Assembly: GCF_029952525.1 (NCBI RefSeq)
Contig: NZ_JASAOF010000002.1
Location: 62,001 to 126,000, forward strand
DNA length: 64,000 nucleotides
Direction: 5' to 3'
From: Saccharopolyspora ipomoeae
GTDB lineage: Bacteria > Actinomycetota > Actinomycetes > Mycobacteriales > Pseudonocardiaceae
The notes under the pieces are model-generated. The model had not been told where the DNA came from. It did no database searches and was given only the letters and a program-made list of their open reading frames with translations. Every line of letters starts with the position of its first letter. The first letter of the stretch is position 1. This document shows, piece after piece, positions 28,793-63,597 of the stretch. Made by a program: the position numbers and the translations under genes.

Positions 28793-28896
28793 CTCGACTC
28801 CTTCTGCGGGTGTCGCCGCGGTCCCATTCGGTGATGGCTTTCGGAGAAGCCGTCGACCTGCCATGCTTTCGCGTCGCAGACCTTCGCTTTGGCCTG

Positions 28897-28907
28897 ATAA
28901 TGGTTAT
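28897..28907. promoter_or_regulatory. AT-rich regulon box A with TATACT -10
   Basis: ATAATGGTTAT, overlapped by a TATACT hexamer at 28905-28910, in the divergent promoter of the ferredoxin (28960) and its reductase. It is one of nine ATRATGRTTA-like boxes in the cluster. Confidence 0.55.
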
Positions 28908-28959
28908 ACTAGATGTGTCGGCTGTCAACGATGCAGGCCGTGTTCGTCGAGGAGGATCC

Positions 28960-29151
28960 ATGCGAGTTCAGGTCGACGCCAACCAATGCCAGGGGCACGG
29001 GCTGTGCCAGATGACCTCGCCCGATGTGTTCGCGCTGCGCGACGAGGACGGGCACGCCTACCCGATCGCGGAGGACGTCGACGGCGCCCTTGCTGATGCG
29101 GCTCGCGATGGCGCGGACGCGTGCCCGGAGCGGGCGATCAGCCTGAAGTGA
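28960..29151 (+). CDS. [3Fe-4S]-type ferredoxin
   Basis: 63 residues from ATG 28960 with GAGGAGG upstream. The motif CQGHGLC followed by ACPERAI near the end leaves three cluster cysteines, as in the 3Fe-4S ferredoxins that serve actinomycete P450s. The partner reductase gene is divergent, 226 bp away. The KorAB oxidoreductase at 44107-47024 also needs a ferredoxin, though usually of another type. Its box A promoter ties it to the catabolic cluster. Confidence 0.9.
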   Translation: MRVQVDANQCQGHGLCQMTSPDVFALRDEDGHAYPIAEDVDGALADAARDGADACPERAISLK

Positions 29152-29349
29152 CGCCGAGCGGGCTGCGCGTCCCGCGGGGTCGTTCCCCCGGTGGCTCGGG
29201 GCGCGCTCGCTCGGCCCGTGGTGGAGGGGGCTGCTCCGGCCGCTCCCGCTGCCCGCCGAATGTTCGGCCGCGCGGCGGAAATCCCGCCGCTCGTCGCCCG
29301 CTCTCACCGGAGTCCTCGCCGGCGGCCCTTGGAGGCCGACGAGACAAGG

Positions 29350-29360
29350 ACTATCATTAT
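29350..29360 (-). promoter_or_regulatory. AT-rich regulon box B with TATAAT -10
   Basis: Reads ATAATGATAGT on the minus strand. A consensus TATAAT lies at 29358-29363 on the plus strand, 32 bp before the hydrolase-like gene. The 240-bp gap upstream of it is very GC-rich and empty of genes. Confidence 0.55.
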
Positions 29361-29394
29361 AATAGAAATTCCCGGTGAGGAGTGGAGGAGACCG

Positions 29395-30162
29395 ATGACC
29401 GACGTCCTCGTGGAGCGCGGCGCTGGTGAGACCGTGTGGATCCGGTTGAACCGGCCCGAGCGGCGCAACGCGTTCGACCCCGCGATGTCCGCAGCGGTCG
29501 TGGAGGCGCTGGAGGACGCCGCGTCCGCGCGCGCGGTGGTCATCACGGGGTCGGGCGGGAGCTTCTGCGCAGGCGGCTCGCTGCAGCAGCTGAGCACACC
29601 GACGGTGGGGGAGATGCGGCAGCTCTACAAATCGACCCTGCGGATGCTGGACGCCGTGCGCCAATGCCCCAGACCGGTCATCGCCGCGGTCAACGGAGCC
29701 GCGGCCGGCGGGGGCAACGAGCTGGTCGTCGCGTGCGACGTGGCCATCGCCGCCCGTTCGGCGACCTTCGGGCAGACCGGGCCGCGAGTCGGCAGTTCGC
29801 CGGTGACCGGCGCGACCAACGTGATGGGCCTGCAGATCGGCGAGAAGCGCGCCAAGGAGCTGGCCCTGTTCTGCCGCCGCTACACCGCTGAGCAGGCCGA
29901 GCGGATGGGCCTGGTCAACGCCGTGGTCGAGGACGACCTGCTCGAGCAGACGGTCACCGAGTGGTGCGGTGAGCTGGCCGCGCTGAGCCCCCGCTACCTG
30001 GAGATCACCAAGGTCAGCTCGAACGTCTGGTGGAACGCCGCCCGCGATTCCTTCAGCGCCGGTCTGGGCATGCTCGTCCAAGCGGTGGGCAGTCCCGACA
30101 TGACCGAAGGCGCGGCGGCCTTCCTGGAGAAGCGCAAGCCGAACTTCCCCCCGCCGGAGTGA
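29395..30162 (+). CDS. crotonase family protein, BadI/MenB-like
   Basis: 255 residues from ATG 29395 with GGAGGAG upstream. Features of the MenB/BadI branch are visible: GPRVGS after FGQT, GEKRAKELALFCRRYTAEQA, ERMGLVNAVV, and a C-terminal EGAAAFLEKRKPNF. BadI opens the ring of 2-ketocyclohexanecarboxyl-CoA by hydrolysis, MenB closes a ring in menaquinone synthesis, and EchA20 acts on steroid ring D. A ring-cleaving hydrolase role would fit this catabolic cluster but is inference; plain hydratase function is possible. It is monocistronic under box B. Confidence 0.82.
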   Translation: MTDVLVERGAGETVWIRLNRPERRNAFDPAMSAAVVEALEDAASARAVVITGSGGSFCAGGSLQQLSTPTVGEMRQLYKSTLRMLDAVRQCPRPVIAAVNGAAAGGGNELVVACDVAIAARSATFGQTGPRVGSSPVTGATNVMGLQIGEKRAKELALFCRRYTAEQAERMGLVNAVVEDDLLEQTVTEWCGELAALSPRYLEITKVSSNVWWNAARDSFSAGLGMLVQAVGSPDMTEGAAAFLEKRKPNFPPPE

Positions 30163-30286: not shown

Positions 30287-31084
30287 TCAGCGCCCCTTCC
30301 AGACCGGCTCCCGCCTCTCCTTGAACGCCAGGGCGCCTTCGCGGGCGTCCTCGGAGCTGCGCACCGGTTCGCTGATCGCCTGCTGGCGCTCGAACGCCTC
30401 GTCCGACGGCCAGTCGCGGGCGGCGTTGATGATCTCCTTGGTGGCCCGGACCGCGAGCGGGCCGTTGGCCGCGATCGTCCGCGCCAGCTCCAACGCCTCG
30501 GAGCGGGCCTGGCCGGGCGGGGTGAGCCGGTTGACCAGGGACACCTCGTGCGCGGCACGCGCGGAGACGAGTTCGCCGGTGAGCGCCCACTCGACCGCCA
30601 CGTGGTAGGGCACGCGTTCGGGCAGTCTGAGCAGTCCGCCTCCCGCCGCCACGAGCCCGCGCTTGACCTCGGGCAGCCCGAACTTCGCCTCCTCCGAGGC
30701 CACGATGAGATCGCAGGCCAGGACGATTTCGAAGCCGCCCGCGATGGCGTGGCCCTCGACCGCCGCCACCAGCGGCTTCGAGGGCGGCTGCCGCACGATC
30801 CCGGCGAAGCCGCGGCCGGGCAGGGACGGCCGCTCCCCGGCGAGGAACGCCTTGAGGTCCATGCCCGCGCAGAAGCTCCGCCCCGCGCCGGTGATCACGC
30901 CTGCGACGAGGTCGTCCCTGCTGTCCAACTCGTCCATCGCGGCCGCGATCGCCGTGGCGGTCGCGGTGTTGATGGCGTTGCGGGCGTCGGGCCGGTTGAT
31001 CGTGACGACCTGAACGCCGTCGACGTGCTCGGTCAGGACGACGGGCTCGGCCGGGTCCGGCTGGGCGCCACTGGATTCGGTCAC
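30287..31084 (-). CDS. enoyl-CoA hydratase/isomerase family protein
   Basis: 265 residues from GTG 31084 with GAGGAG upstream. Crotonase motifs: RSFCAGMDLKAF, EGHAIAGGFEIVL and GLPEVKRGLVAAGG. It is the close counterpart of the hydratase at 1418. It is the last gene of a three-gene minus-strand operon with an SDR dehydrogenase and a thiolase, so hydration, oxidation and thiolysis of a beta-oxidation round are encoded together. Confidence 0.9.
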   Translation of the reverse strand: MTESSGAQPDPAEPVVLTEHVDGVQVVTINRPDARNAINTATATAIAAAMDELDSRDDLVAGVITGAGRSFCAGMDLKAFLAGERPSLPGRGFAGIVRQPPSKPLVAAVEGHAIAGGFEIVLACDLIVASEEAKFGLPEVKRGLVAAGGGLLRLPERVPYHVAVEWALTGELVSARAAHEVSLVNRLTPPGQARSEALELARTIAANGPLAVRATKEIINAARDWPSDEAFERQQAISEPVRSSEDAREGALAFKERREPVWKGR

Positions 31085-31094
31085 GCTGCACTCC

Positions 31095-31853
31095 TCATTT
31101 CGGTGGCATCCGGATCGCGCCGTCGAGGCGGACCGTCTCGCCGTTGAGCATCGGGTTGTCGATGATGTGGTGGGCGAGCGCGGCGAACTCGTCCGGATCT
31201 CCCAGGCGTTGCGGGTGCGGCGTCTGCTTCGCCAACCCGTCGCGGATCTCGTCGGAGAACCGGGACAGGATGGGCGTGTCGAAGGTGCCGGGGGCGATGG
31301 AGCACACGCGGACCAGCTTGCGCGCGAGGTCGCGGGCCGCGACGAGCGTCATGCCCACCACCCCGGATTTCGCCGAGGCGTAGGGGATCTGGCCGATCTG
31401 GCCCTCCCACGCCGCGACCGAGGCGGTGAGCACGCAGGCTCCGCGCTCGCCGTCGACCGGCTCGTTGGCCACCATCCGGGCCGCGGTCAGCCGGAGCACG
31501 TTGAACGAGCCGACGAGGTTCGTGCGCACGATCGACTCGTAGGACTCCAGAGATCCGGGTTGGCCGTCCCGTTCGACCACGCGCACCGTTCCACCGCGGC
31601 CGGCGCAGTGCACCAGCGCGCGGATCGGGCCCTCGGCCAGGTCGAGCGCCCGGTTCACGGCGTCGGCGTCAGCGACGTCGGCAGGACCGAAGCGGGCCGA
31701 GTCGCCCAGTTCCTTCGCGACCCGTTCGCCGTCGGAGGTGGGCAGGTCGATGATCACCGTGGGCACGCCTCGTTCGACGAACCGGCGCGCGGTGGCCAGG
31801 CCGAGACCGGAGGCGCCCCCGGTGACGACGGCCGTCGCGTTGTCCAGCTTCAT
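31095..31853 (-). CDS. SDR oxidoreductase, 3-hydroxyacyl-CoA dehydrogenase type II-like
   Basis: 252 residues from ATG 31853 (the longer open frame runs back into antisense of the thiolase). [26 protein letters not shown] and the tail [16 protein letters not shown] match the HSD10-type 3-hydroxyacyl-CoA dehydrogenases and the paralogue at 10269. It would oxidise 3-hydroxyacyl-CoA with NAD+. It lies 10 bp before the hydratase and 38 bp after the thiolase. Confidence 0.9.
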   Translation of the reverse strand: MKLDNATAVVTGGASGLGLATARRFVERGVPTVIIDLPTSDGERVAKELGDSARFGPADVADADAVNRALDLAEGPIRALVHCAGRGGTVRVVERDGQPGSLESYESIVRTNLVGSFNVLRLTAARMVANEPVDGERGACVLTASVAAWEGQIGQIPYASAKSGVVGMTLVAARDLARKLVRVCSIAPGTFDTPILSRFSDEIRDGLAKQTPHPQRLGDPDEFAALAHHIIDNPMLNGETVRLDGAIRMPPK

Positions 31854-31891
31854 TTCTCTCCCGCTCTCACTCGTTGTTCCGGCTTCCAGCG

Positions 31892-33064
31892 CTACGCGGA
31901 CAGGTTCTCGACGATCGCGGCGTTGGCCATGCCACCGGCTTCGCACATGGTCTGGAGGCCGTACCGGCCGCCGGTGCGTTCCAGGTGGTTGATCAGCGTG
32001 GTCATCAGTCGGCAGCCGGACGCGCCGAGCGGGTGCCCCAGCGCGATCGCGCCGCCGCAGGGGTTGAGCCGGTCGTCGGGCACCCCGATCTCCCGCTGCC
32101 AGGCGAGCGGGACCGACGCGAAGGCTTCGTTGACCTCGAAGGCGGCGATGTCGTCGGGCGACAGCCCGGATCGAGCGTGCACGGCGTGCGTGGCGGGGAT
32201 CGGGCCCGTGAGCATGAGCGTCGGGTCGTCGCCGACCACGGCCGAGGCCACCAGCGCCGCGCGGGGCCGCAGGCCCAGCGAGGTGGCGCGCTCCTCGGAC
32301 ATCACGAGAAGCGCGCTGGCACCGTCGGTGATCTGCGACGAGTTGCCCGCCGTGATCATCCAGTCCAGGTCGGGGAAGTCGTCCAGGTGGGGCTCCCGCG
32401 CGAAGGCGGGGGCCAGCCGGCCGAGCCGTTCCGGTGTGGTGCCCTCGCGGATGGTCTCGTCGGCCACGACCTCGGCGCCGTCCGGAGTCGTGACCGGCAC
32501 GATCTCGTCGCCGAAGGGCGCGGCGGCGGCGCGCTCGTGCGAGCGGGCCGCGTACTCGTCGAGCTCGGAGCGGCTGAGCTTCCACTTCGCGGCCACGAGC
32601 TCGGCGGAGATGCCCTGGGGCACGAGCCCGGGGAACCGAGCGCGCACCTCCGGGCCGTGCGGATCGGCGTCGCCGCGCGCGGACCCCATCGGCACCCGGC
32701 TCATCGACTCCACGCCCGCGGCGATGGCGATGTCGTACGCGCCCGCTCGCACTCCCTGAACAGCGAAGTCGATCGCCTGCTGCCCGGAACCGCACTTGCG
32801 CTCGATCGTCGCGGAAGGCACGTGCGTGGGGAAGCCCGCCGCGAGCACCGCCTGGCGACCGGGGGTGGCGGACTGCTCGCCGACCTGGCCGACGCAGCCG
32901 ACGAGCACGTCGTCGATCAGCCCGGGGTCGAGGTCGTTGCGGGCCACGAGCCGGCTGAGGACCTGCGCGAGCAGGTCCACCGGATGCAACCCGGCCAGCG
33001 CGCCGGTGGCCTTGCCGCGCCCCATCGGGGAGCGGACCGCGTCGACGATCACCGCACGGCCCAT
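31892..33064 (-). CDS. thiolase family protein (acetyl-CoA C-acyltransferase)
   Basis: 390 residues. The Cys nucleophile is in IERKCGSGQQAIDFA, His in ALGHPLGASGCR, and the second Cys in TMCEAGGMANAAI. First gene of the thiolase-SDR-hydratase operon. Its promoter has box C and faces the acyl-CoA dehydrogenase operon across a 136-bp divergent region, which completes a beta-oxidation set under one control region. Confidence 0.93.
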   Translation of the reverse strand: MGRAVIVDAVRSPMGRGKATGALAGLHPVDLLAQVLSRLVARNDLDPGLIDDVLVGCVGQVGEQSATPGRQAVLAAGFPTHVPSATIERKCGSGQQAIDFAVQGVRAGAYDIAIAAGVESMSRVPMGSARGDADPHGPEVRARFPGLVPQGISAELVAAKWKLSRSELDEYAARSHERAAAAPFGDEIVPVTTPDGAEVVADETIREGTTPERLGRLAPAFAREPHLDDFPDLDWMITAGNSSQITDGASALLVMSEERATSLGLRPRAALVASAVVGDDPTLMLTGPIPATHAVHARSGLSPDDIAAFEVNEAFASVPLAWQREIGVPDDRLNPCGGAIALGHPLGASGCRLMTTLINHLERTGGRYGLQTMCEAGGMANAAIVENLSA

Positions 33065-33084
33065 TGCCGCCTCCCTAAACTATG

Positions 33085-33095
33085 ATGATGATAAT
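33085..33095. promoter_or_regulatory. AT-rich regulon box C
   Basis: ATGATGATAAT within CTATGATGATGATAATTAG, 21 bp upstream of the thiolase ATG on the minus strand. Confidence 0.6.
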
Positions 33096-33140: not shown

Positions 33141-33177
33141 TTGACCGCGCTACCGGTAAGACTATTATGATGATTAC
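33141..33177 (+). promoter_or_regulatory. promoter with AT-rich regulon box D
   Basis: TTGACC (33141-33146) and TATTAT (33163-33168) are 16 bp apart, forming a recognisable sigma-70-type promoter for the large plus-strand operon. Box D, ATGATGATTAC (33167-33177), overlaps the -10 end and the expected start of transcription, a position suited to repression. Confidence 0.62.
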
Positions 33178-33200: not shown

Positions 33201-34364
33201 GTGGGATCCGCAATCGATGCCGACGAACAGCGCGCGCTGAAGGAGGTCGCGGCCAAACTCGCCGCGGAGCGCTACGCCCCGCGCGCGGAGGAATGGGACC
33301 GCGAGCGGACCGCCTTTCCCCACGAGGAGCGGCGCTACCTGGGAGAACTGGGACTCCTCGGCATCGCGCTCCCGGAACGGCACGGTGGTGGCGGCGCACC
33401 GCTGCAGCACGCGCTGACCGTCATCGAGGAGCTGGCCAAGGAATGCCGTCCCGCGGCGTTCCAGGTCTTCGAGTCCAACACCGGACCGGCGCAGGTCGTC
33501 GCGAGGCTCGGCAGCGAGGAACAGCGCGAGCGCTTCCTGCCGCCGATCATCAGCGGCGAGGCGACGCTGGCCGTCGCGATCTCGGAACCGGACGCGGGCT
33601 CGGCCGCCACCGACATGAAGACCAAGGCCGTCGTCGAGGGCGACAAGGTGGTGGTCAGCGGTTCGAAGCGGTGGATCTCCAACGGCGGCGAAGCCGATCA
33701 CTACCTCGTCTACGCGCGCATGAACGACGAACCCGGGTCGAAGGCCATCGGCGCGGTGATCGTCGAAGCCGACCGGCCGGGCGTGAGCTTCGGCGAGCGC
33801 GAACGGCTGATGGGCTTCCGCGGCATCCCGTCGGCCGACATCCGCTTCGACGACGTCGAGGTCCCCGCGGAGAACCTGGTGCTCGGTCCGGGGCGCTTCC
33901 GCGAGCTCTTCGGCGCGTTCTCCATCGAACGCCTGGGAAACGCCACGATGAGCCTCGCGCTGGGGCAGGCGGCGCTCGATCGGACCAAGCGCTACGTGCA
34001 GGAGCGCGACCAGTTCGGCAAGCCGCTCGTGGAGTTCCAGAACGTCCAGATGACGCTGGCGGACATGCTGCTGCAGGTCGAGGCGGCCCGCTTGCTCATC
34101 CAGCGCGCGGCGGCCGGCGTCGGCGAGAACCTGCCGAACTCGCTCGACGTGTCGCTGGCCAAGTGCACCGCGAACGAAATGGCCAAGCGGGTCACCGATC
34201 TCGCCATGCAGCTGCACGGCGGGAACGGCTACACCGAGGAGTTCGGCCTGGAGCGGCTGCACCGCGACTCGCACGGGTGGGCGCTGGCCGGAGGCACTCC
34301 GGCGATGCAGCGCATCCGCATCGTCTCCGAAATGCTCGGCCGCTCCTTCGACCAGCGCCGCTGA
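33201..34364 (+). CDS. acyl-CoA dehydrogenase
   Basis: 387 residues from GTG 33201. Family motifs: ISEPDAGSAATDMKT, FGKPLVEFQNVQ and LHGGNGYTEEFGLER. Near the C-terminus the usual YEGT catalytic position reads AGGTPAMQR, without Glu. A Glu is present in FSIERLGNA, the site used by isovaleryl- and long-chain acyl-CoA dehydrogenases, so a branched or bulky acyl-CoA is plausible. It is the first gene of a plus-strand operon running to 42064 and would introduce the alpha-beta double bond, passing electrons to ETF. Confidence 0.9.
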   Translation: MGSAIDADEQRALKEVAAKLAAERYAPRAEEWDRERTAFPHEERRYLGELGLLGIALPERHGGGGAPLQHALTVIEELAKECRPAAFQVFESNTGPAQVVARLGSEEQRERFLPPIISGEATLAVAISEPDAGSAATDMKTKAVVEGDKVVVSGSKRWISNGGEADHYLVYARMNDEPGSKAIGAVIVEADRPGVSFGERERLMGFRGIPSADIRFDDVEVPAENLVLGPGRFRELFGAFSIERLGNATMSLALGQAALDRTKRYVQERDQFGKPLVEFQNVQMTLADMLLQVEAARLLIQRAAAGVGENLPNSLDVSLAKCTANEMAKRVTDLAMQLHGGNGYTEEFGLERLHRDSHGWALAGGTPAMQRIRIVSEMLGRSFDQRR

Positions 34365-34389
34365 CCGGTTCAACGGAAGGGAAACACTC

Positions 34390-35163
34390 ATGACACGCCG
34401 CTTCGACAACCGCACCGCCGCCGTCGTCGGTGGTGGATCCGGCATGGGCCGGTCCATCTCGCTGCGCCTGGCCGAGGAAGGCGCACACGTGTACGTCGCC
34501 GACCTCGGTGCCGACGCCGCCGAGGCGGTGGCGAAGGAGATCGTGGCGGCCGGGGGCAGCGCCGTCGCGCAGCAGGTCGACGCGACCGACAACGACAGCC
34601 TGCGCGCCCTGTTCGACCGCGTTCGCGACGAGCGCGGTGTGCTGCACGCGCTGCACGCGCAGGTCGGCATGCCCGGCCCCGCCGGGCTCGAGGTGTCCGA
34701 CGAGCAGTGGGCGACCAACGTCGACGTGAACGTCAAGAGCGCCTACTACACCTGCACTCTCGGCTTCGACCTGCTCAAAGCCGCGGGCGGCACCGGCTCC
34801 ATCACGATGACCTCGTCGACCTCGGCGCTGGTGGGCTCGCCGTTCAGCCCGATCTACTCGCTGACCAAGGGAGCGCTCGTGCCCTTCGCGCGGTCGTTGG
34901 CGCTCAACGGCGCGCCGGACGGGGTGCGCGTCAACGTGGTGTGCCCGGGCACCGTGCACACCCCGATGCTGGCCCAGTTCTTCGGCCGGGAGCCCGGAGC
35001 CGACGTCTCCGAGCTGACCAAGGACTTCGTCGGCGGGATCCCGCTCGGCCGGGGCGCGGAACCCGAGGAGGTCGCGGCGGTGATCGCCTTCCTGCTCAGC
35101 GACGACGCGAGCTACGTCACCGGCGTCACCATCCCGGTCGACGGCGGGTTGACCGCGAAGTAG
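34390..35163 (+). CDS. SDR family protein with atypical NNAG motif
   Basis: 257 residues. The cofactor motif is VGGGSGMGRS, the catalytic pair is YSLTKG with TSSTSAL before it, and the end is GVTIPVDGGLTAK. Where most SDRs have NNAG, this one has HAQVGMPG, an unusual change in the strand that stabilises the central sheet. The enzyme could still be active. It lies 25 bp after the dehydrogenase and 22 bp before a CoA ligase. Substrate unknown. Confidence 0.85.
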   Translation: MTRRFDNRTAAVVGGGSGMGRSISLRLAEEGAHVYVADLGADAAEAVAKEIVAAGGSAVAQQVDATDNDSLRALFDRVRDERGVLHALHAQVGMPGPAGLEVSDEQWATNVDVNVKSAYYTCTLGFDLLKAAGGTGSITMTSSTSALVGSPFSPIYSLTKGALVPFARSLALNGAPDGVRVNVVCPGTVHTPMLAQFFGREPGADVSELTKDFVGGIPLGRGAEPEEVAAVIAFLLSDDASYVTGVTIPVDGGLTAK

Positions 35164-35185
35164 CGACTCACTGTGGAGGCCGAGC

Positions 35186-53980: not shown

Positions 53981-54067
53981 CGCGGATCGACTGAAACACC
54001 CCCACTCCCGGCCGCCGTCCGCGCGGACGCCGGCGTCGTTCATCCCTTCTGCACGAGGAGACAAGAC

Positions 54068-55186: not shown

Positions 55187-55253
55187 GGACCACCGCGCGG
55201 ATCACCGAAGACGGCCATTCCCCGAGAAGTTCGAGTTCGGGAAGCGAGATCCC

Positions 55254-55697
55254 ATGACCAGCACAGAGATTTCCGAGAAGACAGCAGCCGAGCTGGAGAT
55301 CATCCAGGCGACGCACCGATACGCGCGGGGACTGGACAGGTTCGACCCGGAGGAGGCCCTGTCCGCGTTCGCCGAGGACGCGGTCTGGGACGCCACCCCG
55401 GTCGGCCTGGAGCGCTTCGCGGGGCGCGAGCAGATCAGGGCGTTCTTCGAGCGGGACGCGGACGCGATCGCGTGCCAGTTCCACATCATCACCAACCACG
55501 TGATCGAGTTCGACGCCGGTGATCGGGCGCACGGGACGAACTACGTGTTCTCCGAGGGCCAGACGAAGAGCGGGGCCAAGTTCAAGGCGGTGGCCCTCAA
55601 CGAGGACACCTACGTCGCGACGCCGGACGGCTGGCTCATCGCCTCACGCGTGATCTCGGCCCTGACGCCGCCCGAACTGGACGGATTCGACGCATGA
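55254..55697 (+). CDS. SnoaL-like (NTF2-fold) protein
   Basis: 147 residues. EIIQATHRYARGLDRFDPEEALSAF-type start, with an acid-aromatic pocket (FAGREQIRAFFE) and HIITNHVIEF, places it in the SnoaL_4/nuclear transport factor 2 fold. This fold includes ketosteroid isomerase, the bile acid dehydratase BaiE and limonene epoxide hydrolase. Its stop overlaps the next start by 4 bp. A dehydratase, isomerase or epoxide hydrolase role is plausible but not shown by specific catalytic residues. Confidence 0.82.
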   Translation: MTSTEISEKTAAELEIIQATHRYARGLDRFDPEEALSAFAEDAVWDATPVGLERFAGREQIRAFFERDADAIACQFHIITNHVIEFDAGDRAHGTNYVFSEGQTKSGAKFKAVALNEDTYVATPDGWLIASRVISALTPPELDGFDA

Positions 55698-56542: not shown

Positions 56543-56573
56543 GACGGGTACCGATGCTGCGAGGAGCGGAAGC

Positions 56574-58127
56574 GTGAACCAGGGACTCATACCCGCCAAG
56601 TGGGCCGCGTTGTGCCCCGGTCAGCACGCCGTGTTCGACGTCCCGAACGACCGCCGGCTCACCTGGCGGGAGCTGGACTCGATGGTGCGGCGGCTGGCAA
56701 ACGGCCTCGTCGATCTCGGGCTGAAACCGGGTGACCGGGTCGCGGTGCTCTCGCGCAACTGCGCCGAGTACCAGGCCCTGTACTTCGCCGCCGGTCGGGC
56801 AGGGCTGGTGCTGCAGCCGCTGAACTGGCGGCTGGCGGCCCCGGAGCTGGTGGCCATCGTCGGGGACGCGCGTCCCAGCGCGGTCATCAGCTCGCGCGAG
56901 TGGGCGGGCGCGGTCGCCGAGCTGCAGCGGCACGTCGACGTCCCGCACTGGCTGGAGTTCGGCGCGGACGGGGATGGCGGCCTGGAACGGCTGATGGACG
57001 CCGCCTCGGACGACGAACCCGAGTGGTCGTCGCAGGCGGGCGACGACGATCCGTTCTTCATCCTCTACACCGGTGGGACCACCGGGCGGTCCAAGGGCGC
57101 CCTGCACTCCCATCGCAGCGCGGCGGCCGGGATGCTCAACCAGACCGTGGCCGAGCGCATCGTACCCACCGACGTGTACATGCTGACCGGGCAGATGTAC
57201 CACATCCCGGTGGTGCTCGCGATGAACTACCTCAAGCACGGGTGCCCGCTGGTGCTGGTGAACTTCGAACCGAAGCAGGCGCTGGAGGTCATCGAGGCCG
57301 AACGGGTGTCGGCGTTCCTGGGCATCACCACGATGCTGAACTGGATGATGGCCGTCGAGGGCTTCGGCGGGTACGACCTGTCCAGCCTGCGCAACATCCA
57401 GTACGGCGGCGGTCCGATGCCGTCGAGCATCGTCCGCCAGTCCCTGGAGTCGTTCCCCTGCACGCTGATCCAGGGCTACGGGCAGACCGAGGGGTCGACG
57501 ATGTGCTTCCTGTCCCAGGAGGACCACGTGAACGCCCTCGCGGGATCCCGTCCCGAGCGGCTGCGGTCCTGCGGCCGCGAGGGGTTCGGCACCTCCGTGC
57601 GGGTCGTCGACGACGACGGCCGCGACGTCCCGCAGGACGGCCGGACGCCGGGCGAGATCATCGTGCGGTCCGAGGCGAACATGCTCGGCTACTGGAACCG
57701 GCCGGATCTCACCGCGCAGACGCTGCGCAACGGGTGGATGTGGACCGGGGACGTCGCCACCTGGGACGAGGACCGCTACGTCTTCATCGTCGACCGCGCC
57801 AAGGACATGATCATCTCGGGCGGCGAGAACATCTTCAGCGTCCAGGTGGAGGAGGCCGTCGCCCAGCACCCGGCCGTGCTCGAATGCGCCGTCATCGGCG
57901 TGCCGGACGACGAATGGGGCGAGTCGGTCAAGGCGGTCGTGGTGGTCAAGCCGGACAGCGAGGTGACCGAGCAGGACATCATCGAACAGGCGCGCCGACA
58001 CCTGGCCGGTTATCAGAAGCCGCGTTCCGTGGACTTCGTCCACGAGCTGCCGAAGGCGCCGACCGGGAAGATCCTCAAGCGCGCGCTGCGGGAGCCCTAC
58101 TGGGCCGCTCGGGGGCGCCATGTCTGA
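56574..58127 (+). CDS. acyl-CoA synthetase / AMP-dependent CoA ligase
   Basis: 517 residues from GTG 56574 with GAGGAG upstream. ANL motifs: LYTGGTTGRSKG, GYGQTEGS, GWMWTGDVATWDED, DMIISGGENIFS and the C-terminal lysine in KAPTGKILKRAL. It activates a carboxylate of the pathway as its CoA ester. Overlaps the following MaoC-like gene by 8 bp. It differs from the ligase at 35186, so acids at two stages may be activated. Confidence 0.91.
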   Translation: MNQGLIPAKWAALCPGQHAVFDVPNDRRLTWRELDSMVRRLANGLVDLGLKPGDRVAVLSRNCAEYQALYFAAGRAGLVLQPLNWRLAAPELVAIVGDARPSAVISSREWAGAVAELQRHVDVPHWLEFGADGDGGLERLMDAASDDEPEWSSQAGDDDPFFILYTGGTTGRSKGALHSHRSAAAGMLNQTVAERIVPTDVYMLTGQMYHIPVVLAMNYLKHGCPLVLVNFEPKQALEVIEAERVSAFLGITTMLNWMMAVEGFGGYDLSSLRNIQYGGGPMPSSIVRQSLESFPCTLIQGYGQTEGSTMCFLSQEDHVNALAGSRPERLRSCGREGFGTSVRVVDDDGRDVPQDGRTPGEIIVRSEANMLGYWNRPDLTAQTLRNGWMWTGDVATWDEDRYVFIVDRAKDMIISGGENIFSVQVEEAVAQHPAVLECAVIGVPDDEWGESVKAVVVVKPDSEVTEQDIIEQARRHLAGYQKPRSVDFVHELPKAPTGKILKRALREPYWAARGRHV

Positions 58128-58575
58128 CGGGGCGACCGCGCCGTCGGCGGCGGACGTGAGCAGGCAGGTGGGACGCCGCTTCCCGGGCGGGGAGTTCGTC
58201 GTCGAGCCGTGGCGCGCGTGGCTGGTCGCGGATGTCGTGCTGGACGAGCCCGGCGGGACGGTGGCCCACCCCCTGTTCGTCTGGATGGCCGCGACCGGTG
58301 CGATGGGGTTGAGCTGGGACGAGCTGTTCGCGTGGTTCGGCTCGACGGCGGCGGACGGCCCGATGTTCGGCGAGCACGAGACCTCGATCCACCGGCCGCT
58401 GGTGGTCGGCGGGACCTACGCGGTCAGCGGCGGGATCACCTCCGCGGACAGGAAGTCCGGTCGCACCGCCGGTGCGTTCGACCTCGTCGGCTACGAGCTC
58501 GAACTGCGCGACAAGGCCGACGGGGTGCACGTCGCGACCTGCTGGAACTCGCTCGTCTTCCCGCGGAGGCACTGA
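58120..58575 (+). CDS. MaoC/FAS1-type dehydratase-like subunit without the hydratase motif
   Basis: 151 residues of the hot-dog fold resembling the N-terminal, non-catalytic half of two-hot-dog hydratases (WAATGAMGLSWDELFAWF, HETSIHRPLVVGGTYAVSG). It lacks the DxNPxH motif found in its neighbour. The next gene begins at its stop (TGATG), so the two probably form a heteromer like HadAB or the steroid ChsH1/ChsH2 enzymes, one chain supplying the substrate tunnel and the other the catalysis. Confidence 0.75.
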   Translation: MSDGATAPSAADVSRQVGRRFPGGEFVVEPWRAWLVADVVLDEPGGTVAHPLFVWMAATGAMGLSWDELFAWFGSTAADGPMFGEHETSIHRPLVVGGTYAVSGGITSADRKSGRTAGAFDLVGYELELRDKADGVHVATCWNSLVFPRRH

Positions 58576-59003
58576 TGGAGGTCGCGGTCGGTGCGCGGTT
58601 GCCGGAGTGGCGAGTGCCCGCGGTCAGCGCCGAGAAGATGAAGACCACGGCGGCCCTGCTGGCCGATCCCAACCCGATCCACTGGGACGTCGAGGTCGTC
58701 CGCGCGCTCGGCATGGGTGAGCGTCCGATCAACCAGGGCCCGCTGAACATGGGCTACGTGCTCAACATGCTCGCGGCCTGGAGCGGTGGGCACGACCGCC
58801 TGCGCCGATTTCGGGTGCGCTTCCGGGGCAACGTCTTCGCCGGCGACGAGCTCCGCGCCGGCGGTTCGGTCACCGGGGTGCGCGAAGAGGCCGGGATGAC
58901 CGTGGCCGACTGCGACGTCTCGCTCGACGTGGTGGGCGGCACGACGGTCCTGAGCGGAACGGCCGCCGTCATCGTCGGGCCGGTGAACGAGGAGAACGCA
59001 TGA
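58575..59003 (+). CDS. MaoC-like enoyl-CoA hydratase, catalytic subunit
   Basis: 142 residues from ATG 58575. LLADPNPIHWDVEVVRALG matches the R-hydratase motif with the catalytic Asp and His (DxNPxHxD), followed by INQGPLNMGYV. Would hydrate a 2-enoyl-CoA together with the subunit at 58120. TGATG upstream, and a 4-bp overlap with the thioesterase after it, indicate tight coupling. Confidence 0.85.
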   Translation: MEVAVGARLPEWRVPAVSAEKMKTTAALLADPNPIHWDVEVVRALGMGERPINQGPLNMGYVLNMLAAWSGGHDRLRRFRVRFRGNVFAGDELRAGGSVTGVREEAGMTVADCDVSLDVVGGTTVLSGTAAVIVGPVNEENA

Positions 59004-59434
59004 CACAGCACGACAAGCTGGAGTTCCAGCTGACCTACGGCGACTGCGACACGGTGGGGATCGCGTTCTTCGCGATCTACTACCGGTGGATGGAGCGGGC
59101 CTACACCTCGTGGATGTCCTCGCACGGCCTGCGCAGCGGGGAGCTGCCCGACCAGCTGGGCATCATCACCGTCGGCGCCAGTTCCGGTGCGGCCTACCTG
59201 CGGCCGGCGAGGGTGCTGGACCGGCTCACCTGCCAGGTGGTCCTCGATCACATCGGTTCCACGTCGTACTCGGTGGGCTACGAGTTCACCAGGGACGGGG
59301 AGCTGATCACCCGGGGACGCATGACCTACGTGTGCCGCGGGCTCGACTGGTCCAAGACCCCGGTTCCCGACGCGCTGCGGCGCGTCCTGGAATCCCTTCC
59401 CAGTCCGCACTTCTCCGTCCCCGCAGGAGTCTGA
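59000..59434 (+). CDS. acyl-CoA thioesterase, 4HBT hot-dog family
   Basis: 144 residues. YGDCDTVGIAFFAIYYRWMER is the 4-hydroxybenzoyl-CoA thioesterase signature with the catalytic Asp in GDCD. It hydrolyses an acyl- or aroyl-CoA thioester, possibly to release a dead-end intermediate or recycle CoA. The ATG overlaps the hydratase stop and the next gene starts 1 bp after this stop. Confidence 0.87.
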   Translation: MTQHDKLEFQLTYGDCDTVGIAFFAIYYRWMERAYTSWMSSHGLRSGELPDQLGIITVGASSGAAYLRPARVLDRLTCQVVLDHIGSTSYSVGYEFTRDGELITRGRMTYVCRGLDWSKTPVPDALRRVLESLPSPHFSVPAGV

Positions 59435-59435
59435 C

Positions 59436-60056
59436 ATGGCGCAGCGACCTCCCACGAGCGAGTCCAGCGCCCTCGCCGCGATGGTGCGGGCGCAGACGAC
59501 GGTGGACCACCCGGCGCCCGACGACCTCGCGGCCCACCTCGCGATGGTGCGCGACATGCGGGATCGGGAGGCGATCCGGGATCTCGCGCTGCTCTACACC
59601 CGCGCGGTCGACGACTACGACCTGGAAGCGCTCCTCGACCTGTTCACCGACGACGGCGTCTTCGAGCGGCGGGGCAAGGCCGCCGCCGGTCGCGAAGGAC
59701 TTCGCCAGGCCTACACCGAGGCGATGCGGGCCAACCGGACCATGGTGCACATCCCCGATTCCCACGTGGTTCAGCTGCTTCCCGGACGGCGGGCGACCGG
59801 ATGGGCGGCCGGCCACGCCGAGCTGGTGATCGAGTCCAGCACGGTGCTCGCCGCGTTCCGGTACGAGGACGACTACCGCTGCGTCGACGACCGCTGGCGC
59901 TTCGAGCGCCGCTCGCTGACCTTCAAGTACGCCGTCCCGGCCGACCAGCTCGCCGACGGCCTCGCCGGCTCGGAGCGGATGCGCTGGCCGGGTGGCCGGG
60001 CCACCGCCGCCGACTACCCGGAGAGCCTGCCCACCTGGGCCGAGTTCCACAGCTGA
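59436..60056 (+). CDS. SnoaL-like (NTF2-fold) protein
   Basis: 206 residues. The region REAIRDLALLYTRAVDDYDL begins the SnoaL_4 domain at about residue 43; FERRGKAAAGREGLRQAY and HIPDSHVVQL follow. About 40 extra residues precede the domain and a basic tail follows. It is the third NTF2-fold gene of the operon. Ketosteroid-isomerase-, dehydratase- or epoxide-hydrolase-like activity is possible; no reaction can be fixed. Confidence 0.82.
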   Translation: MAQRPPTSESSALAAMVRAQTTVDHPAPDDLAAHLAMVRDMRDREAIRDLALLYTRAVDDYDLEALLDLFTDDGVFERRGKAAAGREGLRQAYTEAMRANRTMVHIPDSHVVQLLPGRRATGWAAGHAELVIESSTVLAAFRYEDDYRCVDDRWRFERRSLTFKYAVPADQLADGLAGSERMRWPGGRATAADYPESLPTWAEFHS

Positions 60057-60115
60057 GGCGGTCCTCCCGGCGAATCCGGGTGCGCTGGACCGCGATCCAC
60101 AGAGAGGAGCATCTC

Positions 60116-60958
60116 GTGCAAGGACGGATGACGGGCAAGGTCGCGTTCATCACCGGTGCGGCACGGGGGCAGGGGCGCAGCCACGCGGTCCGCCTGGCCT
60201 CGGAGGGCGCCGACATCATCGCCGTCGACATCTGCGAAGACATCCGCACCGTGACGCCCTTCTACTCGCTGGCCACCGAGGACGACCTCGCTGAAACGGC
60301 GAAGGAGGTCAAGGCCCTCGGCCGCCGGGTGGTCGCCACGAAGGCCGACGTCCGAGACTTCGGCGCGCTCCAGAAGGCCTTCGACCACGGCGTCGCCGAG
60401 CTCGGACCGGTGCACACCGTCGTGGCCAACGCCGGGATCGCGACGGCGTTCCGCCAGACCTGGGAGCTCACCGCCGAGGAGTGGCGGGACATGATCGACG
60501 TGAACCTGACCGGTGTCCACCACACGGCCGCCGCGGCGATCCCCAGCATGATCGAAGCCGGCAACGGCGGTTCGATCGTGTTCACCAGCTCGATCGGCGG
60601 GTTCAAGGGCGTCCCGAACGTGGGGCACTACGTGGCGGCCAAGCACGGCATCGTGGGCCTGATGCGCACGCTCGCCAACGAGCTGGCACCGCACCACATC
60701 CGGGTGAACACCGTGCACCCGACCAACGTCAACACGACGATGATCCAGAACCCCGGGGTTTACGGGCTGTTCGCGCCGGATGATCCCGAACCCGGCCAGG
60801 ACAAGGCGATTCCCGGTTTCCTGTCGATGAACTCGATGCCGGTGCCGTGGGTGGAACCGGAGGACATCAGCAACGCGGTGCTGTACCTGGCCTCCGACGA
60901 GGCGCGCTACGTCACCGGCGCCACCCTGCCCGTGGACGCGGGGGCCTACGTCAAGTGA
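60116..60958 (+). CDS. mycofactocin-coupled SDR oxidoreductase
   Basis: 280 residues from GTG 60116 with GAGGAG upstream. TGAARGQGRSHAVRLASEGA, the insert EDDLAETAKEVKALGRRVV, VANAGIATAF, YVAAKHG and a long TNVNTTMIQN segment define the mycofactocin-coupled (carveol dehydrogenase-type) SDR subfamily, which keeps its nicotinamide bound. It would oxidise a secondary alcohol, for example on a ring. A second family member is at 62675. Confidence 0.91.
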   Translation: MQGRMTGKVAFITGAARGQGRSHAVRLASEGADIIAVDICEDIRTVTPFYSLATEDDLAETAKEVKALGRRVVATKADVRDFGALQKAFDHGVAELGPVHTVVANAGIATAFRQTWELTAEEWRDMIDVNLTGVHHTAAAAIPSMIEAGNGGSIVFTSSIGGFKGVPNVGHYVAAKHGIVGLMRTLANELAPHHIRVNTVHPTNVNTTMIQNPGVYGLFAPDDPEPGQDKAIPGFLSMNSMPVPWVEPEDISNAVLYLASDEARYVTGATLPVDAGAYVK

Positions 60959-61013
60959 GCGACCCGAGGTCGGGCGGTGCGCCGCGACCAGAGACGATCG
61001 GGGAGTCCGGCTC

Positions 61014-62699
61014 ATGACCGAACAGCAGGCAGGTTCCTACGACGTGGTCGTGCTCGGCACCGGGGCGGCCGGATTGGTCGCCGCCCTGGTGGCCGCGCAG
61101 TCCGGTGCTCGGGTGGGCCTGTTCGAGAAGGGCGACCGCGTGGGCGGCACGACCGCGCTGTCCAGCGGTGTGGCATGGCTTCCGGCCAATCCGCGCGCGG
61201 CGGAGGCCGGTATCGCGGACTCGGAGGAACAGGGACTCGGATACCTGGGTTCCCTGTCCCACGGCAAGATCCTCCCCGAGCTCGCCGAAGCTTTCGTGCG
61301 CACCGGACCGGAACTGGTGGAGTGGCTGGACTCGTCGACCCCGCTGAAGCTCCGGCTCGTACCCGGATTCCCGGACTACCACCCGGAGAACCCGGGCGGG
61401 AAGCCCGGAGGGGGCCGGTCGCTGGAGCCCGAGCTGTTCTCCTTCGACCGCCTTCCTGGCTGGGACGACCGCATCGTCGGCGTCACGCGCCCGATGCTGG
61501 TGGCGGAGACACCGATCGGCGGCGGCACCGGCGTTCTGGATCCGGAGGTAGAGCGGCGTCGGCACGAGCGGAAGCTCGAAGGTCTCGGCCGCGCGATGGT
61601 CGGGGCGTTGCTCCGGGGGTGTCTCGACCACGGGGTCTCTCCGGTGGTCGGGGCGCGGGCGCGGGAGCTGGTCTTCGAGCGCGGGCGGGCCAGCGGCGTG
61701 CGGTTCGAGGGGCCGGCCGGCCCCGCTGAGGTGCGCGCTGGATCGGTGGTCGTCGCCACCGGTGGCTTCGAGTCCGATCCGGCGCTGGTGCGGGACTTCC
61801 TGCGCGGGCCGATGAGCATGCCGCCAGGGGTGCCGACCAACAGCGGCGACGGCTTGCGGATGGCGATGCAGGCCGGCGCGATGCTGGGCAACATGAGCGA
61901 GGCATGGTGGGTCCCGGTCGTCGAGTTGCCCGACCGGCATCCCGACGGGCGTCCGGTCGTGAGCCTCGTGCTGCGCGAGCGCACGCTTCCCCGGTCCATC
62001 ATGGTGAATTCGAGGGGCCTGCGCTTCACCAACGAGGCCGCCAACTACAACGCGCTCGGCGGTGCGTTCCACCAGTTCGATCCCACGCGGTTCGACTACG
62101 TCAACCAGCCGTGCTGGCTGGTGTTCGACCACGAGCACGTGCGCCGCTACGGGGGATTCGGCGCGCCACCGGGCGGCCCCGCCGCCGACTGGATCGTCCG
62201 AGCCCCGAGCCTGGCCGAACTGGCCGAGCGAGTGGGCATCGATGGGGAGGCGCTCGCGGTCACGGTTCGGCGCTGGAACCGCCTGGCCGCCTCGGGGCAC
62301 GACGCCGACTTCGGCCGGGGCGACAGCGCGTACGACGGGTGGTGCGGCGACCGCGCCGCGTACCCGGGGCGTGCGGCGACGCTGGGCCCGCTGGACGCGG
62401 CGCCGTACTACGCCGTGCCGATCGTGGCCAGCGCGCTGGGCACCAAGGGAGGTCCGCGCACCACTGCGGATGGTGAGGTGCTCGACGTGCGCGGTTCGGT
62501 GATCCCCGGCCTGTTCGCGGCGGGCAACGCGATGGCCGGGCCGACGGGGATGGTGTACGGCGGCGCGGGCGGAACGCTCGGGCCCGCGCTGGTGTTCGGC
62601 TATCGCGCGGGCGGGAGGGCCGCCGAGGAGGCCGGTCGACGATCTGTGCGCAGGCACGAATCCGTGGAGGGAACATGGGAAAGTTCGACGGCAGAGTAG
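61014..62699 (+). CDS. FAD-binding dehydrogenase, 3-ketosteroid delta1-dehydrogenase (KstD)-like
   Basis: 561 residues. DVVVLGTGAAGLVAALVAA binds FAD, GDRVGGTTALSSGVAW is the typical KstD block, and VVVATGGFESDPALVRDFL, MVNSRGLRFTNEAANYN and LGTKGGPRTTADGEVLD complete the family set, ending in GMVYGGAGGTLGPALVFG. Such enzymes desaturate or reduce next to a ring ketone. It lies between two mycofactocin-type SDRs. Steroid is only one option; other cyclic enones fit. It overlaps the following gene by 25 bp. Confidence 0.88.
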   Translation: MTEQQAGSYDVVVLGTGAAGLVAALVAAQSGARVGLFEKGDRVGGTTALSSGVAWLPANPRAAEAGIADSEEQGLGYLGSLSHGKILPELAEAFVRTGPELVEWLDSSTPLKLRLVPGFPDYHPENPGGKPGGGRSLEPELFSFDRLPGWDDRIVGVTRPMLVAETPIGGGTGVLDPEVERRRHERKLEGLGRAMVGALLRGCLDHGVSPVVGARARELVFERGRASGVRFEGPAGPAEVRAGSVVVATGGFESDPALVRDFLRGPMSMPPGVPTNSGDGLRMAMQAGAMLGNMSEAWWVPVVELPDRHPDGRPVVSLVLRERTLPRSIMVNSRGLRFTNEAANYNALGGAFHQFDPTRFDYVNQPCWLVFDHEHVRRYGGFGAPPGGPAADWIVRAPSLAELAERVGIDGEALAVTVRRWNRLAASGHDADFGRGDSAYDGWCGDRAAYPGRAATLGPLDAAPYYAVPIVASALGTKGGPRTTADGEVLDVRGSVIPGLFAAGNAMAGPTGMVYGGAGGTLGPALVFGYRAGGRAAEEAGRRSVRRHESVEGTWESSTAE

Positions 62700-63511
62700 C
62701 GGTGATCACCGGTGCGGCCAGGGGGCAGGGGCGTTCGCACGCGCTGGCCTTCGCTCGCGAGGGTGCCGACGTCGCGATCTGCGACATCGCGGCGCAACTG
62801 GACAGCGTGCCGTACCCGATGTCGGCGCGAAGCGACCTGGACGAGACCGCGCGGCTGGTCACCGGCCTGGGCAGGCGTTGCCGGACCGCGACCGTCGACG
62901 TCCGCGATGCCGGGCAGGTCGCGTCGTTCGTCGAGCAGGCCCACGCGGAACTGGGCCGGATCGACTACTGCCTGGCCAACGCGGGGATCTTCACCTTCTC
63001 CACGATCGCGGACATGGACGATCGGATGTGGTCGGAGATGGTGGACACGAACCTCACCGGAGCCTTCCACACGATGCGCGCCGTCCTGCCGGTGATGACC
63101 GAGCAGGGCGCCGGGCGCATCGTGGCCACCTCGTCGATGGCGGGGAAGATGGGCTACCCGAACGTCGCGCACTACTCCGCGACCAAGTGGGGCCTGATCG
63201 GCCTGGTGAAGTCGCTCGCCCAGGAGGTCGCTTCGCTGGGGATCACGGTCAACGCGGTCTGCCCCACGGGGGTCGACACCACGATGATCCAGAACGAGGC
63301 GGCGTACAAGCTGTTCATGCCCGATGCCGAGCACCCCACGCGGGAAGAGGTCGCGCCCTTGTTCCAGGGCGTCAACGTGATGCCGGTGCCGTGGGTCGAA
63401 CCGGCCGACGTGTCGGCCGCGATGGTCTTCCTGTGCTCTGACGAGGCGCGCTACATCACCGGCGAGACGATCGCGGTCGCCGCGGGCGCGAACGCCGCGA
63501 ACGCGGGCTGA
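62675..63511 (+). CDS. mycofactocin-coupled SDR oxidoreductase
   Basis: 278 residues. TGAARGQGRSHALAFAREGA, the insert RSDLDETARLVTGLGRRC, LANAGIFTF, YSATKWG and TGVDTTMIQNEAAYK mark the same subfamily as the gene at 60116, and MPVPWVEPADVS is shared. Two such SDRs plus the NDMA-type dehydrogenase at 54068 give the operon three mycofactocin-type enzymes. Probably acts on alcohol/ketone pairs at different stages. Confidence 0.91.
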   Translation: MGKFDGRVAVITGAARGQGRSHALAFAREGADVAICDIAAQLDSVPYPMSARSDLDETARLVTGLGRRCRTATVDVRDAGQVASFVEQAHAELGRIDYCLANAGIFTFSTIADMDDRMWSEMVDTNLTGAFHTMRAVLPVMTEQGAGRIVATSSMAGKMGYPNVAHYSATKWGLIGLVKSLAQEVASLGITVNAVCPTGVDTTMIQNEAAYKLFMPDAEHPTREEVAPLFQGVNVMPVPWVEPADVSAAMVFLCSDEARYITGETIAVAAGANAANAG

Positions 63512-63558
63512 ACGGTGCGGGATCGTCGGCGGAGCGGTTCCACGACCACAAAACAATG

Positions 63559-63569
63559 ATGATGATTAC
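63559..63569. promoter_or_regulatory. AT-rich regulon box I
   Basis: ATGATGATTAC, identical over 11 bp to box D, 28 bp before the last flavoprotein gene. It suggests an internal promoter or a new unit continuing beyond the window. Confidence 0.6.
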
Positions 63570-63597
63570 TTCGAAATGGGCAGTGGAGCGTGCGGTT

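Follow-up and report, generated by a model that had tools for sequence, protein, structure and literature searches.

An AT-ladder box precedes most gene groups of a catabolic cluster in Saccharopolyspora ipomoeae and may mark the regulon of an FCD-type GntR protein

The window, a stretch of 64,000 nucleotides from the very GC-rich bacterium Saccharopolyspora ipomoeae, carries much of a gene cluster of about 43 kb in which short AT-rich boxes precede most gene groups. The genes are as follows.

27564..28733, minus strand: ferredoxin reductase (Pyr_redox_2, Reductase_C)
28960..29151, plus strand: 63-aa ferredoxin, so named on its sequence and on its position next to a P450 in relatives
29395..30162, plus strand: enoyl-CoA hydratase/isomerase family protein (family scan)
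30287..33064, minus strand: operon for thiolase, SDR and an enoyl-CoA hydratase-like protein, the last named from its sequence
33201..42064, plus strand: operon for acyl-CoA dehydrogenases (the first, 33201-34364, plus strand, named from sequence), SDR, acyl-CoA synthetase, HpcH/HpaI lyase, MaoC, aldehyde dehydrogenase and CoA-transferase III
42110..42874, minus strand: SDR
42956..47024, plus strand: acyl-CoA dehydrogenase and two-subunit 2-oxoacid:acceptor oxidoreductase
47061..47801, plus strand: gntR, FCD-type GntR/FadR regulator (PF00392, PF07729; scanned as 47046-47798), candidate binder of all boxes
47850..49408, minus strand: amidohydrolase 2 and SDR
49724..63511, plus strand: long gene run, with aldehyde dehydrogenase, an esterase, a Baeyer-Villiger-type monooxygenase, NDMA-dependent alcohol dehydrogenase, SnoaL-like proteins, acyl-CoA ligase, MaoC-like and thioesterase proteins, a KstD-like FAD enzyme and SDRs
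63598..64000, plus strand: 5' part of an FAD-dependent dehydrogenase gene that runs on into L007

The cluster is likely devoted to the degradation of a ring-shaped compound, and the pathway looks like an aerobic, CoA-dependent degradation of an alicyclic or steroid-like ketone, a substrate at which the KstD/4-oxocyclohexanecarboxylate dehydrogenase-like match only hints. Subfamily models scored above cut-off for the NDMA-dependent alcohol dehydrogenase, the thiolase and the 2-oxoacid oxidoreductase; among the NCBIfam equivalogs shown for cluster proteins, none did. A candidate sigma factor at 55694 was rejected, the sigma-70-like match being confined to the SnoaL-like tail.

The product of gntR combines an N-terminal winged-helix GntR domain (PF00392, 40.6 bits vs. 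a cut-off of 27) with a C-terminal, all-helical FCD domain (PF07729, 81.1 bits vs. 24.3). Its AlphaFold model (mean pLDDT 84.5) has seven long helices after residue 90. The first-ranked Foldseek match was the GntR protein 6az6 (E = 3e-10; TM 0.64 on the query and 0.77 on the target), and NanR, VanR, CGL2915 and FadR were also among the matches. The PDB matches include 8pqm, a FadR-family DNA-binding domain that we take to be LutR.

Nine boxes had been proposed by a sequence-only reading of this DNA, and all nine are present within 1–2 bases of the places given there.

Box 1, 28896..28911, no strand assigned: GATAATGGTTATACTA, between ferredoxin reductase (minus) and ferredoxin (plus); holds canonical TGGTTATACTA
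Box 2, 29352..29364, no strand assigned: TATCATTATAATA, exact ladder, 31 bp upstream of the enoyl-CoA hydratase gene
Box 3, 33081..33093, no strand assigned: TATGATGATGATA, exact ladder, 17 bp upstream of the thiolase operon (minus)
Box 4, 33163..33175, no strand assigned: TATTATGATGATT, covers the likely -10 of the acyl-CoA dehydrogenase operon (plus), TTGACC-16-TATTAT
Box 5, 42916..42928, no strand assigned: TATGGTAATCATA, between SDR (minus) and the acyl-CoA dehydrogenase/oxidoreductase operon (plus), TTGACG-16-TATGGT
Box 6, partial, 47054..47066, minus strand: AACCATTATGAGT on the plus strand, over the gntR start codon, 2 mismatches to the ladder
Box 7, weak, 49429..49441, minus strand: before the SDR/amidohydrolase operon (minus), TTGACA-17-AATGAT
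Box 8, weak, 49602..49623, plus strand: AACGATTACTATGAATATAATG, before the aldehyde dehydrogenase gene run (plus)
Box 9, 63555..63567, no strand assigned: AATGATGATGATT, exact ladder, before the FAD dehydrogenase/acyl-CoA synthetase/enoyl-CoA hydratase operon (plus)

The boxes are better described as a 3-bp ‘ladder’, AT-N-AT-N-AT-N-AT (WATNRTNAYNATW), a sequence that is itself a dyad. They had been summarized by an 11-bp consensus, ATRATGRTTA; the boxes are real, but the consensus has 10 letters and is poorly specific, and the ladder separates them better. At up to two mismatches the consensus matched the window 46 times (13.4 expected), and since half of these loose matches (23/46) lie before 28 kb, it was dropped as a working motif. 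An expectation-maximization search also gave, by eye, AT-n-AT-n-AT-n-AT as its core; the likelihood at width 15 was 295, compared with 44–50 for three shuffled sets, a value inflated by homologous sequences in the input of 87 gaps from nine regions. The symmetry correlation of these models was taken about the model middle and not about the motif's own centre, so that low values are uninformative.

On the ladder, six of the nine boxes are strong, five with exact matches (29352, 33081, 33163, 42916 and 63555; these are all the exact matches in the window) and one with a single mismatch (28899), and three are weak (47054, at gntR; 49429; 49602-49623). The 11-bp ATGATGATTAC is exactly identical at 33167 and 63559, as had been claimed. 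The sequence-only reading had drawn the regulon over about 35 kb (28894..63570); boxes do occur throughout this extent, but the set continues past the window end (L007:3746, L007:5146 and L007:6829). In the resulting 42.8-kb span (28.7–71.5 kb) there are eight distinct boxes with at most one mismatch, none of them (0/8) within a called gene, and there are no such matches in the 61.2 kb flanking the span (104 kb read in total). The boxes lie 17–110 bp from the nearest called start, and one divergent gap holds two of them. Genome-wide, equal frequency of the motif before unrelated genes had been named as the outcome that would speak against a regulon, and it was not observed: the exact ladder occurs at six places in 6.63 Mb, five of them in the cluster. 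The sixth (C37:3416) has no clear pathway gene adjoining it.

The ladder is also found between genes of homologous clusters in eight relatives: A. acididurans, P. endophytica, P. flavalba, G208, G371 and G266, and, from another order, G565 and G504. Across the nine cluster spans all 55 distinct boxes lie outside called genes, though 78–96% of each span is called coding; the clusters are homologous, and hence these are not independent samples. Some boxes are kept to the letter. All 13 bp of box 3 are shared by A. acididurans, P. endophytica and P. flavalba, and box 5 is unchanged in P. endophytica, P. flavalba and G208. Boxes also stand at unlinked genes, among them homologs of the box 9 operon genes: an FAD dehydrogenase in G371, an acyl-CoA synthetase, an enoyl-CoA hydratase and a transporter in P. 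flavalba, and an enoyl-CoA hydratase-like ORF in P. endophytica. Among the other exact matches inspected outside the clusters, a subset that excludes, for instance, a G208 C2 match, three G504 matches and a G565 match, several lie beside no clear pathway gene (A. acididurans, three; P. endophytica, one; G208 and G504, some), and one in G208 falls inside a gene. Taken together, the boxes have the features of a single regulon: one box type before most units, rare elsewhere, kept in relatives and present at unlinked pathway genes.

Against 1000 column permutations of the exact pattern, none reached the observed count in the window, none in the five family relatives pooled and 18 in the other order. 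With one mismatch allowed, 12 (window), 8 (family relatives) and 39 (other order) permuted patterns reached it, a weaker result because AT-rich promoters in a GC-rich genome look alike. It is here that a chance similarity, picked post hoc from AT-rich promoter gaps, finds its footing, in that the consensus derives from the very sequence it describes and a few per cent of permuted one-mismatch patterns equal the observed counts; yet the pattern, once settled on the window, turned up in relatives outside the derivation set, including another order, and with no mismatches it beats nearly all permuted patterns, so that the relatives already make this explanation very unlikely, and we consider it the least probable of those discussed here.

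Presence of the GntR protein goes with ladder enrichment. Orthologs of at least 74% identity were found in 8 of 390 family genomes, and at least three strict-ladder matches were present in 7 of these 8 genomes, compared with 5 of the 382 others (Fisher P = 2.4e-11); counted on overlap-merged sites the figure is 5/8 and not 7/8, G371 and G372 each having one double match. The association has irregular members. G266 carries the GntR protein and has no exact ladder genome-wide, with three one-mismatch boxes in its cluster; G574 has a GntR protein of 74% identity, and the 27 kb read there contain no homologous cluster. No ladder with at most one mismatch was found in G045 or in two Geodermatophilus regions. 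A clean motif switch between GntR clades was rejected, given that G263 has two one-mismatch ladders and that the four g28 genomes printed have a ATCATCATCGGTATCGT stretch before gntR.

From these observations we infer, with a probability of about 0.73, that the boxes serve as operators for the FCD/GntR protein encoded in the cluster itself (47061-47801), which is predicted to repress all boxed groups at once. Within the set of genes having a homolog in the window, which the scan of relatives covered, this protein is the sole regulator found in all nine clusters. Its assignment as the binder is an argument from co-occurrence, and is supported by that distribution and by the absence of a second GntR protein, described below, from three box-bearing genomes.

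Repression is the likely mode, because several boxes appear to overlap the -10 of a TTGAC-type promoter. At 33163, 42916, 49429 (minus strand) and L007:6829, a hexamer that touches the box or falls within it has a TTGAC-type -35 at 16–18 bp, and L007:5146 shows the same arrangement by eye. A GntR dimer would sit on the box, and in several promoters it would cover the -10-like hexamer and keep RNA polymerase off; GntR would be released once its FCD domain binds a pathway intermediate, probably a carboxylic acid or acyl-CoA. One regulator could thus switch the whole pathway on and off together. A box had been placed at the start of gntR itself. It is present, but partial. The gntR start is most likely 47061 and not 47046, as judged from ortholog conservation, and with this start the box straddles the start codon, where it may let GntR limit its own synthesis. 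GGTATGCTGCCRAMCATTATGAGTG is retained there in two genomes of another order, with two changes in the 25 bp around the box.

The strongest competing explanation keeps the boxes as cluster operators and assigns them to another binder, be it the second GntR protein of the relatives or a protein of TetR, MarR or other type whose gene lies elsewhere. Six clusters of the nine, those of A. acididurans, both Prauserella, G208, G565 and G504, contain a second GntR gene; the products, 34–35% identical to the first GntR and 60–85% identical to one another, could bind some boxes there. However, neither the window's genome nor G371 or G266, all of which bear boxes, has an ortholog of it, the best matches (34–36%) being the first GntR itself, and its helix, where fully printed, keeps the canonical Arg (PPERTM...VGRGT). 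For the TetR gene in the window (23806-24444), a comparison with 80-kb regions of three relatives showed no homolog, whereas the first GntR is present in 9/9 clusters and its presence tracks the ladders. We therefore regard another binder as unlikely, if worth keeping in mind.

Much less probable is that the boxes are mainly -10 elements, read by the main sigma factor or by an alternative one, and look alike because their surroundings are GC-rich. The sequence-only reading had allowed that part of the similarity reflects -10 elements, which is fair: TATNAT within the ladder makes a fair -10, in several promoters the ladder overlaps a -10-like hexamer, and several boxes lie 16–18 bp from a TTGAC hexamer. 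But the -10 alone does not explain the rarity of the ladder elsewhere, for many promoters depend on the main sigma factor, and outside the cluster there is a single exact ladder. Two boxes in one divergent gap, the spread of distances to the nearest start and the dyad also speak against it, and among the cluster genes none for a sigma factor was seen.

Lsr2 prefers AT, and AT-rich boxes within a region of 70% GC could in principle be loading sites of an Lsr2-type nucleoid silencer over an acquired gene island. The cluster, however, is 66–72% GC, the same as its surroundings, and the boxes are single 13–20-bp sites of fixed phase with similar letters at homologous genes of several genera. Although actinobacteria are known to silence acquired regions by Lsr2-like proteins (PMC7002338), we think it highly improbable here.

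The preferred reading, operators of the first GntR, sets this protein beside the FCD-containing FadR subfamily (FadR, LldR (CGL2915), PdhR, NanR and VanR), which it resembles in its two domains, its fold and dyad operators at divergent catabolic promoters. It may also resemble B. subtilis LutR, from another phylum, which acts on lactate genes through the operator TCATC-N-GATGA; the likeness would lie in GATGA-like half-sites. HTH position 28, which we take to correspond to Arg35 of E. coli FadR, is not Arg in this clade but Ser in 8/8 family orthologs, all of which have S/A/R/A/S/R at the FadR contact positions. The three out-of-family orthologs also read LESE at that stretch, G574 departing from the others with LESEN. 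The helix varies in sequence, these three having VARGS or IARGS and not VARAS, and with VARGS in G565 and G504 a strict VARAS signature for ladder readers was dropped.

The usual operator of the subfamily is TKGT-N3-ACMA, with Arg at HTH position 28 preferring G/C, as described in PMC4494728. In contrast, the protein here has Ser at this position, and the T.GT-N3-AC.A core occurs in only one box per family cluster: in one of the eight ladder boxes of the window span (at the ferredoxin gene), at one ladder box in each of the 7/7 family clusters scanned (window included), and in 0/7 boxes in G565 and 0/7 in G504. The FadR-type palindrome that had been invoked thus holds for the ferredoxin-gene box, but most boxes depart from the usual GT-N3-AC operator. 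A FadR-subfamily GntR protein with an AT-only palindromic operator is BioR (TTATMKATAA), which has several target operons and a site before its own gene (PMC4494728, PMC4554459). BioR differs in its even-spaced 10-bp palindrome, its biotin genes and its alphaproteobacterial hosts, with no 3-bp AT ladder.

Neither the regulon nor the ladder was found described among the top-ranked literature results. For the organism, a run of unlabelled catabolic genes can now be treated as one candidate regulon under a specific candidate regulator, and the ladder provides a search pattern for detached pathway members in other genomes. For the FadR/GntR subfamily, this may be a case of operator change, in which the specificity Arg gives way to Ser alongside a shift from GT-N3-AC towards an AT ladder. 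More tentatively, and at somewhat less than even odds, an FCD/GntR clade with LE[SP]ES...VAR[AG]SLREAL may have largely lost the family's GT/AC core and come to read a 3-bp-periodic AT ladder, which, being nearly unique at 70% GC and doubling as a -10, would let one regulator unite some dozen promoters, together with whatever gene gains a ladder, in a portable pathway regulon across actinomycete orders.

All nine AT-rich boxes described in the sequence-only reading are present, within 1–2 bases of the positions it gave, and the 11-bp identity between those at 33167 and 63559 is exact. Its consensus, ATRATGRTTA, was not specific: with up to two mismatches it gave 46 matches in the window, half of which (23) fall before 28 kb. 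Alignment of the boxes reveals a common 3-bp period, AT-N-AT-N-AT-N-AT, which is a dyad centred on the middle N. We fixed this ladder as the working pattern WATNRTNAYNATW; a stricter form, WATNATNATNATW, was used for the strict-ladder count in family genomes, and the core ATNRYNRYNAT for the survey of promoter-capable gaps.

The exact ladder occurred at only six places in the organism's own genome (assembly 6.63 Mb, 47 contigs), five in the window (29352, 33081, 33163, 42916 and 63555) and the sixth at C37:3416, and the pattern read backward had no exact match there. The one-mismatch ladder has a chance background, because it occurred at 54 places vs. 24 for the backward control. Exact-match counts exceeded all 1000 column permutations in the window and in five family relatives pooled, and were reached by 18 of 1000 in two genomes from outside the order; one-mismatch counts were reached by 12, 8 and 39 of 1000, respectively. 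At up to one mismatch, the 104 kb read around the window holds eight distinct boxes, all in the 28.7–71.5 kb interval and all outside called genes, and no box was found in the remaining 61.2 kb. The boxes extend past the window end into the adjoining sequence, L007:

L007:3746, box upstream of a luciferase-like gene
L007:5146, box GATAACTATTATC upstream of a P450 gene
L007:6829, box upstream of a SnoaL-like gene, then a transporter

The catabolic cluster with ladder boxes therefore spans about 43 kb, not the 35 kb first proposed. Among 20 promoter-capable gaps (≥30 bp, 28.6–71.5 kb), seven contain the full core and four only one-mismatch cores; two of the latter, 55208 and 71477, appear fortuitous. 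The nine core-free gaps are all same-strand and 31–141 bp long; eight are consistent with operon interiors, and the ninth precedes gntR. At four boxes (33163, 42916, 49429 on the minus strand, and L007:6829), a -10-like hexamer within or adjoining the box is spaced 16–18 bp from a TTGAC-type hexamer, and visual inspection adds L007:5146; no strong -35 was found for several boxes, 33081, 29352 and 63555 among them.

A GTDB contig scan found five loci encoding a relative of the window's GntR (47061–47801). Amycolatopsis acididurans, Prauserella endophytica and P. flavalba (GntR at 80–85%) have a homologous core cluster with gene order kept, most genes at 77–92%, and extra genes; their clusters hold 4 of 7, 4 of 6 and 4 of 6 of the exact ladders in each genome. 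Two Geodermatophilus genomes (GntR 49–51%) had no exact ladder. GntR orthologs at ≥74% were present in 8 of 390 Pseudonocardiaceae genomes, the next best match being only 52%; G208, G371 and G266 have the cluster with boxes between genes, and G372 was covered by pattern search only. A 394-genome sample of the class contained three more genomes with the GntR at 71–74% (E up to 1e-75); these belong to a single family of another order. Two of these genomes, G565 and G504, carry the cluster with seven boxes each, none inside called genes. The third, G574, has the GntR, but the homologous cluster is absent from the 27 kb examined, and its single exact ladder is on a different contig with no cluster homolog adjoining.

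A two-subunit 2-oxoacid:acceptor oxidoreductase (44107–47024) lies between an acyl-CoA dehydrogenase gene and gntR in the window and likewise in G208, but not at the equivalent place in A. acididurans, both Prauserella, G371 or G266. In G263 (L073–L074, 2464–14985), 59–87% homologs of the cluster's downstream half (monooxygenase, esterase, alcohol dehydrogenase and acyl-CoA ligase) adjoin a 50% GntR with the alternative recognition-helix type.

Boxes also precede pathway genes unlinked to the cluster, which points to a trans-acting factor rather than to some local feature of the cluster. In G371, about 235 kb separate the cluster from a FAD dehydrogenase gene (82% to that at 63634), which is preceded by one site matching in two registers. 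On separate contigs, AATGATTACCATA lies upstream of an acyl-CoA synthetase (75%) and enoyl-CoA hydratase (78%) in P. flavalba, and, in P. endophytica, of a 153-aa ORF 81% identical to the hydratase; a P. flavalba transporter homolog (60%) more than 630 kb away follows TATTATCATGATT. Not every exact match fits: among those examined, no clear pathway gene accompanies C37:3416, three A. acididurans sites, one P. endophytica site (C22) or some of those in G208 and G504, and one G208 match falls within a gene. In G504, a long ladder with several overlapping registers (L104 on C4, 9556–9580) precedes an aldehyde dehydrogenase gene (51% identity to the one at 49766) that may be a regulon member detached from the cluster.

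We consider the GntR at 47061–47801 the leading candidate for the box binder, with a probability of about three in four. It has GntR and FCD domains, its predicted structure is of good confidence with GntR-family chains as best PDB matches, and it is the regulator common to all nine clusters. At least three strict ladders were found in 7 of 8 ortholog-bearing vs. 5 of 382 other family genomes (Fisher P = 2.4e-11), although merging overlapping registers would turn 7/8 into 5/8, G371 and G372 each having one site counted twice. Of the five ortholog-free genomes that reach this count, four have their strict ladders scattered (two in G363 are 53 kb apart), and the fifth, G201, has four on four contigs. 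Six of the nine clusters, those of A. acididurans, both Prauserella, G208, G565 and G504, additionally encode a second GntR (34–35% to the first), which forms a single ortholog group at 60–85% to the A. acididurans copy. Its ortholog is absent from the whole genomes of the window, G371 and G266, where the best match is the first GntR (34–36%), and since all three bear boxes it is not the general binder. The second GntR (L016:2275–3009 in A. acididurans) has the canonical Arg where its full helix was seen. The 80-kb regions compared in A. acididurans, P. endophytica and P. flavalba lack a homolog of the TetR gene at 23806. This gene belongs to a separate upstream group (18840–24444) with a biotin-dependent carboxylase fusion and an acyl-CoA ligase, without ladder boxes.

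At what we take to be the FadR DNA-contact positions, by numbering, the residues are S, A, R, A, S, R in all eight family orthologs and mostly A, G, R, G, S/T, R in the group at ≤52%. G565 and G504, which have boxes, read LESES...VARGS; the second Ala is therefore not general among ladder-bearing genomes, whereas the Ser and the first Ala are. A survey of the FadR subfamily reports that Arg at HTH position 28 confers a strong G/C preference in the TKGT/ACMA operator, A/T being avoided (PMC4494728). The window GntR has Ser at this position and a putative operator rich in A/T. In each of the seven family clusters scanned, one box contains a canonical T.GT-N3-AC.A core, TGGTTATACTA; it lies by the ferredoxin gene or the gene next to it in six clusters and by another gene in G266, which would tie the ladder to a FadR-type operator. 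The gntR start itself is spanned by GGTATGCTGCCAACCATTATGAGTG, nearly identical in G565 and G504 (GGTATGCTGCCGAACATTATGAGTG) and similar within the family; TATGCT would be the -10 and the ATG at 47061 the start, the mRNA having almost no leader and the start codon being overlain by a partial box.

The regulon proposed in the sequence-only reading is supported and extended, with this GntR as its probable regulator. Catabolic clusters under FadR-type control are a known kind of system; the candidate regulon and its proposed ladder operator are new. The cluster encodes acyl-CoA dehydrogenases, acyl-CoA ligases, enoyl-CoA hydratases, MaoC-type proteins, a thiolase and a class III CoA-transferase, together with an HpcH/HpaI lyase, aldehyde and alcohol dehydrogenases, a Baeyer-Villiger-type monooxygenase, a P450 and a KstD/4-oxocyclohexanecarboxylate-dehydrogenase-like enzyme. 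These families suggest aerobic degradation via CoA esters, the candidate substrate being an alicyclic, terpenoid or steroid-like ketone.
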